Below are positions 22,866 to 50,417 of a stretch of DNA of 64,000 nt, in pieces (the stretch's first letter is position 1; every line of letters starts with the position of its first letter). The stretch covers positions 124,001-188,000 of the forward strand of contig CAIJLZ010000007.1 of NCBI GenBank assembly GCA_903821605.1. The letters run 5' to 3'. A model generated the notes under the pieces. It saw only the letters and a program-made list of their open reading frames with translations, was not told the DNA's origin and made no database searches. A program made the translations under genes and the position numbers. The stretch comes from an uncultured Sphingomonadales bacterium. Lineage in GTDB: Bacteria > Pseudomonadota > Alphaproteobacteria > Sphingomonadales > Sphingomonadaceae.

Positions 22866-22940
22866 TGGTGGGCGTGGCAAGGATTGAACTTGCGACCCCT
22901 GCGATGTCAACACAGTGCTCTACCACTGAGCTACACGCCC
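22866..22940 (-). tRNA. tRNA-Val (anticodon GAC)
   Basis: Cloverleaf read on the minus strand: acceptor GGGCGTG/CACGCCC, D-stem GCTC/GAGC, anticodon stem CTGTG/CGCAG with loop TTGACAT (anticodon GAC), T-stem GCAAG/CTTGC with TTCAATC, discriminator A and an encoded CCA end. It reads GUC and GUU codons. A terminator follows directly. Confidence 0.95.
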
Positions 22941-25299: not shown

Positions 25300-25680
25300 T
25301 CAGAGGGTTGGGCGACCGCTGCTGACGGTGAGAGCCGTCGGGGGAGGAAAGTCCGGGCTTCACGGAAACACGGTGCCGGGTAACGCCCGGCGGGCCGGGA
25401 AGGAATTCCCGGTTCAGGGAAAGTGCCACAGAAAGCAGACCGCCGTTGCTTCGGCACGGTAAGGGCGAAAGGGTGCGGTAAGAGCGCACCGCGTGACTGG
25501 CAACAGTCGCGGCACGGTAAACCCCACCGGAAGCAAAACCGAATAGGGGCGGCACATGGACCTGGTTCCGGTCCGTCGCCCGGGTTGGTTGCTGGAGGGC
25601 GCGGGCAACCGCGCTCCTAGATGAATGGTCGCACAGGGCGGTTCGCCGCCTGGACAAAACCCGGCTTACAGACCCTCTGA
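25300..25680 (+). ncRNA. rnpB: RNase P RNA, bacterial type A
   Basis: Catalytic RNA for tRNA 5' maturation. The P4 signature GAGGAAAGTCCGGGCT is at about 25344, CACAGAAAGCAGACCGCC and GGTAAGAGCGCACCGCG follow, and the 3' end reads CCGGCTTACAGACCCTCT. P1 forms between TCAGAGGGT (from 25300) and ACCCTCTGA (to 25680). Small ORFs on both strands here are chance. It is convergent with rimM. Confidence 0.96.
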
Positions 25681-25707
25681 CATTTTACTGATGGATGGGC
25701 GCGCGTG

Positions 25708-49226: not shown

Positions 49227-49383
49227 AGTCGCTCGCATCGGCCAAAGGCATGGGATGACCTTATTTCAGTGTTGCGGCATCACCTTATAAATACTGGGTT
49301 CAGCTTATATTTTTGCGGCCCACTGAATTCTCTTTGACAGCGTACAGGCGGGAGAAAAACCTGCCTGATTACGCGAGCCGCCC

Positions 49384-49412
49384 TTGAATTCATCCCAAAT
49401 GAGTCATATGTT
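49384..49412 (+). promoter_or_regulatory. Candidate promoter of the small RNA
   Basis: TTGAAT (49384-49389), 17 nt, TATGTT (49407-49412). It places a start near 49419. A second TTGACA at 49334-49339 has no good -10 partner. Confidence 0.45.
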
Positions 49413-49418
49413 TGCTTC

Positions 49419-49528
49419 AGCACGGGTGCATGCCCCCCCCTTTCATGCATCGTGCGGCATGCCTTCGGGCATGCTTCCTCCCTGAACCTTGGCCACCTCG
49501 TGCTCCTATGAACACGAGGTGGTTCTTT
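49419..49528 (+). ncRNA. Putative trans-acting small RNA with anti-Shine-Dalgarno loops
   Basis: About 108 nt in a gap with no ORF. Hairpin 1 (49420-49455): GCACG and TGCATG pair with CATGCA and CGTGC, leaving an 11-nt loop of eight C and three T. Hairpin 2 (49457-49474): GCATGCC-TTCG-GGCATGC. A single-stranded TTCCTCCCTGAACC follows (49475-49488). Hairpin 3 is a terminator (49493-49522). The C-rich segments are complementary to ribosome sites. This shape recalls the alphaproteobacterial alpha-r14/suhB small RNA family, which may be what this is; without a search the family is uncertain. Confidence 0.6.
49493..49528 (+). terminator. Terminator of the small RNA
   Basis: CCACCTCGTG (49493-49502) pairs perfectly with CACGAGGTGG (49513-49522), then TTCTTT. 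It points towards the plus strand although no plus-strand gene precedes it within 260 nt, which is the main evidence for a small RNA. Confidence 0.88.
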
Positions 49529-50417
49529 ATTCAGCGGCCTGTGCGGTTGTCAGGCCCCAACCGATGTCGGCCAGCGTGTCACAGAGCTGACGGAGCAGCA
49601 GGCGCAGGTCTTGCACCTTGGTGATCATCATTTCACCCGTATCATCGAGATAGAGCGCGCGATCGAATTCCAGCTGAATCGCATGGAAATGCTGGCTTGG
49701 GCGGCCGTGGCGGGCAAGGGTGTAGGCACCTGCATAGGGCCGATTCCGGTCGGCGGCCAGGCCAGCCTTGCGCGATAATGTCACCGCGCACCCGGCGAGA
49801 CTCGTATCACAACTCTGTCCATGGCGATCCCCCACTACTAGCCGCAGCCCATGTCCAGACTGGCCTCTTGGGATGCTGGGCATGGAATGAAGATCGACCA
49901 GAATGGCGACGCCATGGGCGACCCACGCCGCGTGCATCGCCTGTTCGATGCCTTGGTGCCAGACCGTATGCACCGTGGCGACTCGAGCGTGAATGTCGTT
50001 GAGGGTAAGACGTTCACGATAAATATCGCCGATTCGGGGAACGCGACTCGGCAACAGCCCAAGTCCCGCACGGGTCTTTGAAGGATCGCAGGCGCGGGCT
50101 TCTAGCCGAGCTTGCGCGAGACCGGGATCGTTGCGGGCGATCATTGCTGGGTCAATTTCGCGCGGGTCGCGATTGAGGTCGATCCAAGCACGTGCTGTTT
50201 CGGCCACCAGTAGCTGATGGGGGCTATCGTGTAGGTCGCCGACGAGCGCATCTGCGAAGCGGTCTTCCAGCAGGGCCAATTGCTCTGGCGTCAGGCGGGA
50301 CTGGGTCAATAAGGCGGGAGGATAAAACCGACCTGCATGCGGCACGGCCACGACAACCGGCGAGGGGACCGGAAAATTGGGTGTGCCCCCACCCTTATCT
50401 GCCCCCGAATCGTGCAA
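49527..50417 (-). CDS. N-formylglutamate amidohydrolase family protein
   Basis: 296 residues of the FGase/HutG family. VVAVPHAGRFYPP, AWIDLNRDPREID, ILVDLHSMPS and VGDRHGQSCD are the conserved stretches that bind the metal. True HutG removes formate from N-formylglutamate in histidine breakdown; no hut genes are near, so the substrate may differ. Divergent from the antiporter gene. Confidence 0.85.
   Translation of the reverse strand: MHDSGADKGGGTPNFPVPSPVVVAVPHAGRFYPPALLTQSRLTPEQLALLEDRFADALVGDLHDSPHQLLVAETARAWIDLNRDPREIDPAMIARNDPGLAQARLEARACDPSKTRAGLGLLPSRVPRIGDIYRERLTLNDIHARVATVHTVWHQGIEQAMHAAWVAHGVAILVDLHSMPSIPRGQSGHGLRLVVGDRHGQSCDTSLAGCAVTLSRKAGLAADRNRPYAGAYTLARHGRPSQHFHAIQLEFDRALYLDDTGEMMITKVQDLRLLLRQLCDTLADIGWGLTTAQAAE

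Follow-up and report, generated by a model that had tools for sequence, protein, structure and literature searches.

The window, a stretch of 64,000 nucleotides, contains a predicted small RNA (sRNA) gene on the + strand, located between a DUF808 gene and a convergent N-formylglutamate amidohydrolase (FGase) gene. DUF808 is encoded on the same strand and ends approximately 270 bases before the sRNA terminator, whose T-tract is overlapped by the FGase stop codon. The features of the locus are as follows.

49384 to 49412 (+): putative promoter; -35 box TTGAAT (49384 to 49389), 17-nt spacer, -10 box TATGTT (49407 to 49412)
49419 to 49528 (+): small RNA gene of about 110 nt; fold z-score of about -5, covariance-model matches family-wide
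49420 to 49455 (+): hairpin 1, with a C-rich segment in its loop; seen in the fold, all 9 modelled pairs changed on both sides among 98 homologs
49433 to 49443 (+): C8T3 loop of hairpin 1 (eight C, three T); mean unpaired probability 0.95
49456 to 49475 (+): hairpin 2, a perfect 8-bp stem with a UUCG loop (TTCG in DNA); all 4 modelled pairs covary
49474 to 49483 (+): core 10-mer CUUCCUCCCU; 9 of 10 positions identical to the published alpha-r8 10-mer UUUCCUCCCU
49475 to 49483 (+): linker TTCCTCCCT, as seen in the sequence
49484 to 49494 (+): GAACCTTGGCC, nearly invariant in homolog alignments, between the core and the terminator stem
49491 to 49531 (+): intrinsic terminator with tail TTCTTTATT; 12 modelled pairs
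49527 to 50417 (-): FGase gene; PF05013, E = 3.5e-54

The 5' end of the sRNA was placed from the -10 box, with an uncertainty of a few nucleotides, and the 3' end from the T-tract. The terminator stem is a perfect 10-bp helix, CCACCTCGTG/CACGAGGTGG (49493 to 49502 with 49513 to 49522), followed by the tail. A preliminary description of this DNA had proposed the promoter TTGAAT-17-TATGTT, the hairpins, the C-rich loop, the linker, and the terminator, and each of them was recovered in place on the + strand. Generic scans listed neither end of the gene, because the promoter has 8 matching positions out of 12, one short of the scan minimum of 9, and because the terminator loop measures 10 nt where the scan maximum is 8.

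Inspection by eye revealed no conserved PhaR-like box in the sRNA promoter. A near-perfect inverted repeat, CAGGCGGG-agaaaaa-CCTGCCTG, spans 49346 to 49368, a short distance upstream of the -35 box, and may be an operator or a former DUF808 terminator. A PHB depolymerase gene (PF06850; 45978 to 47246, - strand) is located a few kilobases from the sRNA, possibly by coincidence; the RNA MmgR controls PHB in Sinorhizobium meliloti. Elsewhere in the window, Rfam identifies a bacterial RNase P RNA (25300 to 25684, + strand) and a tRNA (22869 to 22940, - strand), both ordinary.

The locus folds more stably than shuffled sequence. The z-score equals -5.03 for positions 49384 to 49540 (0 of 200 shuffles equal) and -5.3 for the predicted transcript, 49418 to 49531 (0 of 500). 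Much of this score is supplied by the terminator; the 5' part without it still reaches a z-score of -2.8, equaled by 4 of 500 shuffles.

Conservation and covariation in the Sphingomonadaceae

A DNA search across 40 relatives detected the sRNA in 18, its own genome included. The sequences of these 18 were aligned with MAFFT and used to build a covariance model, R1, which finds the sRNA in 172 of 200 Sphingomonadaceae genomes, with a single match in each except for one genome with two. Named records carrying it include Sphingomonas, Novosphingobium, Erythrobacter, and other Sphingomonadaceae.

Covariation was assessed in 98 aligned sequences, nearly all from different genomes. Double-sided changes occur in 21 of the 25 pairs, and 95.8% of cells are paired (97.9% for hairpin 2 and 99.4% for the terminator), in an alignment that was fitted to the model structure and is therefore biased toward it. 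The unfitted MAFFT alignment of 18 sequences already displays double changes in 16 of 25 pairs. None of 500 shuffles reaches the observed level, and sliding the pairing partners destroys the signal. Since the element is conserved in 172 of 200 family genomes and covaries in 21 of 25 pairs, it does not reflect chance, and 49419 to 49528 is very likely a real structured RNA gene.

The unpaired segments are conserved as well. Loop 1 contains a run of three to eight C in 98/98 homologs, and in 83 of them the run belongs to the CCCTCAT or CCCTTTC type; CTCCCTG is present in every homolog (98/98), and CTCCCTGAACCTTGGCC is nearly invariant. The preliminary description had suggested a small RNA that exposes anti-Shine-Dalgarno segments, and this is supported by a C-rich loop and a linker that are both conserved and unpaired. 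It had also held that a lack of conserved hairpins and C-rich loops among sphingomonads would count against such an RNA; the family as a whole retains the hairpins together with the C-rich loop and linker.

Upstream of the 98 homologs, a TTGAA-type -35 box and a TAtnTT-type -10 box recur with a spacer of mostly 16 to 17 nt, in a survey that took the best-scoring box pair of each sequence without a shuffle control. Among the homologs, two reading frames remain open, each in roughly 60% of sequences, and none stays open throughout, and homolog lengths differ by non-multiples of three. Together, these observations argue against a conserved peptide.

Probable assignment to the alpha-r8 family

An Rfam search, as proposed in the preliminary description, gave no match at the sRNA locus at the gathering threshold. 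Below it, suhB/mmgR (RF00519) matches over the whole model, scoring 19.2 bits where the cut-off is 41, a level that 0 of 17 homologous loci pass. This threshold is a curation limit rather than a biological feature; at that limit, Rfam would not list the sRNA. When R1 was searched against the class, matches were found in 21 genomes of other alphaproteobacterial families. Eighteen of these loci were inspected, and all 18 hold an Rfam suhB RNA above the cut-off at the same place, 12 of them with an FGase gene. These loci had been picked by R1 itself and are not independent, and the separate check therefore relied on members chosen by Rfam: four suhB RNAs from other families in the order (L020, L021, L023, and L029) match R1 with E <= 2.1e-4.

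In most alphaproteobacteria, alpha-r8 occurs as a single copy next to an FGase gene, and its core 10-mer, UUUCCUCCCU, is single-stranded and located downstream of a hairpin (Vogt and colleagues, PMC12559287). The sRNA displays the corresponding features, namely, an unpaired 10-mer after a hairpin, a Rho-independent terminator, an FGase neighbor, and homology to recognized members. The FGase-linked position that characterizes the main alpha-r8 copy holds across the relatives: of 117 loci, 114 have a convergent FGase gene, separated from the sRNA by a median of 14 nt, and two of the remaining three run off the contig. By the model matches, the FGase locus, and the core 10-mer, the sRNA is likely homologous to alpha-r8. 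Because alpha-r8 is marked in the literature by its FGase linkage and by the core UUUCCUCCCU, the sRNA would be the FGase-linked alpha-r8 RNA of the Sphingomonadaceae, and we are confident in proposing that 49419 to 49528 (+) most probably encodes an independently transcribed, trans-acting sRNA of this kind (a MmgR/SisA homolog). It is a clade-specific, diverged variant of a known family, which the reference Rfam model is too narrow to recognize. In our literature search, sphingomonads yielded no paper describing this RNA, although an earlier description of some copies is possible, and the Zymomonas small-RNA papers showed no link to it.

Three further suhB copies in the same genome pass the Rfam cut-off. 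They are located on contigs C6 and C4 of the genome (G000), at loci other than the FGase one (L259, 233 to 312; L260, 265 to 344 and 495 to 574; all on the - strand), and two of them stand in tandem. Their core is AUCCUCUCC, altered relative to CUUCCUCCCU, and R1 gives no match to them. Conversely, R2, a model of the AUCCUCUCC type, picks up most of the alpha-r8 RNAs from other families but few FGase-linked sphingomonad ones, and does not match the window sRNA. The FGase-linked sphingomonad RNAs and the AUCCUCUCC-type copies look like separate alpha-r8 branches. TTCGCA-TTGCACAA boxes lie upstream of the three copies and are perhaps binding sites of a regulator.

Three other readings were considered. 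As an alpha-r8 homolog, the RNA could have the FGase mRNA, rather than mRNA at ribosome-binding sites, as its main partner: a hypothetical read-through transcript would carry a perfect full complement, and would either sequester the sRNA or be controlled by it. The convergent order and short gap fit this idea, as does a hairpin on the FGase strand that no T-tract follows, and sponging of an alpha-r8 RNA is known in Caulobacter (CrfA; PMC12559287). However, the closeness may simply reflect compact gene order, and mRNA targets elsewhere would suit the conserved, unpaired core equally well, so that we consider this partner improbable. Still less probable is that the element encodes no separate RNA and is a mere 3' end (terminator region) of the transcript from DUF808 or FGase. 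Its location between two convergent genes, overlapping the FGase stop codon, would suit a transcript end. However, adjacency to DUF808 was detected within the genus only, whereas the RNA is family-wide, and the terminator therefore belongs to the sRNA; the FGase-strand hairpin runs into CCAAGGTT instead of a T-tract; and hairpins 1 and 2, like the core, show conservation with covariation downstream of a promoter-like sequence. Finally, the preliminary label "alpha-r14/suhB-like" stands in its suhB part, by homology and gene neighborhood, but membership of alpha-r14 (NfeR1) or alpha-r15 (AbcR) is extremely improbable: although AbcR RNAs likewise combine three stem-loops with two CU-rich anti-Shine-Dalgarno motifs (PMC7143759), neither family gives an Rfam match up to E = 10, the distant R1 matches are all suhB, and the locus is the FGase locus.

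Predicted targets and comparison with known systems

For an alpha-r8 RNA at this locus, a role as an anti-Shine-Dalgarno translation repressor is plausible by analogy. The core CUUCCUCCCU is positioned after hairpin 2, with a mean unpaired probability of 0.77 in the window sRNA, and is the predicted main target-pairing site. It would pair with G-rich ribosome-binding sites (GGGAGG, AGGGG) while Hfq would hold the U-rich 3' end. Hairpin 1 presents a possible second anti-Shine-Dalgarno site in its C-rich loop, which may help the core in pairing or alternate with it. Such pairing would keep a set of mRNAs from being translated, plausibly those of TonB-dependent receptors and other uptake genes, as for SisA in Caulobacter. 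Binding of the core to ribosome-binding sites with Hfq is expected because compensatory mutation proved that the SisA 10-mer pairs with a leader (PMC12559287) and because hfq is encoded in this genome (G000, contig C13, 201881 to 202309, - strand; L297/L298). The latter locus displays two PF17209 matches 240 bases apart, both within a 191-aa open frame, and probably encodes one tandem Hfq protein.

Both motifs are enriched in the start regions of TonB-receptor genes relative to genes of the window (GGGAGG, 7/28 versus 1/52, p = 0.002; AGGGG, 11/28 versus 2/52, p = 1e-4). This signal is confounded, as the ribosome-binding sites of TonB-receptor genes are generally stronger (p = 3e-5), and the start codons in the test were chosen partly by ribosome-binding-site strength. 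The core seed performs weakly better than shuffled seeds (16 of 200 reach the same level), and the loop-1 seed performs no better than its shuffles (110 of 200). We therefore regard the TonB-receptor signal as a lead, not proof. The best predicted pairing involves a receptor gene in L273 with the leader ACAGGGAGGAT (-23.8 kcal/mol). TCAGGGAGG has only four occurrences in the genome, of which one is the complement of the sRNA itself and another lies in an HslU-like ATPase gene leader, and a genome-wide search for a CrfA-like sponge by means of this sequence yielded no candidate. Tentatively, we raise a broader scenario that we hold possible but doubtful: the ancestral FGase-linked alpha-r8 RNA may have become a two-site repressor that uses both core and C-rich loop and whose regulon differs from that of the Rfam-recognized suhB RNAs, and the overlapping FGase transcript may form a built-in antisense sponge.

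An sRNA that ranks among the most widespread in alphaproteobacteria thus appears to be present at the FGase locus across the Sphingomonadaceae yet missed by the standard Rfam model, an annotation gap that a wider covariance model would repair. Members of this family are used for pollutant degradation, and work on sphingomonad "SuhB" may have addressed paralogs. In Sphingopyxis granuli TFA (PMC6563040), SuhB is described in a review as repressing thnR translation with Hfq. The TFA RNA, judged by its description, and the three Rfam-recognized copies are distant homologs of the sRNA within alpha-r8/suhB. In contrast to the sRNA, the three copies carry the core AUCCUCUCC and occupy other loci, and R1 and R2 hardly match each other's members.

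Caulobacter SisA (PMC12559287) shares with the sRNA the FGase neighbor, a hairpin followed by a single-stranded 10-mer (UUUCCUCCCU in SisA, CUUCCUCCCU here), and a Rho-independent terminator. The sRNA differs in that hairpin 2 is a perfect 8-bp stem where SisA has a weak hairpin (compared by description), hairpin 1 carries a C-rich loop, and the Rfam model misses it. A loop-1 C-run of at least four is present in 74 of 98 sphingomonad homologs, compared to 2 of 21 alpha-r8 RNAs of other families, and the possible second anti-Shine-Dalgarno loop represents a testable difference in targeting. A non-sphingomonad alpha-r8 RNA (L065, approximately 1501 to 1615) contains a run of 11 C in its upstream loop; C-rich loops are therefore not strictly confined to the Sphingomonadaceae. 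AbcR (alpha-r15) is similar in its working, with three hairpins and two unpaired CU-rich anti-Shine-Dalgarno motifs, and Rfam searching gives no homology. With S. meliloti MmgR and RF00519, the sRNA shares the core, the terminator, and the order of elements, and it differs from them in a length of about 110 nt instead of 77 and in its score, 19.2 bits versus 41.
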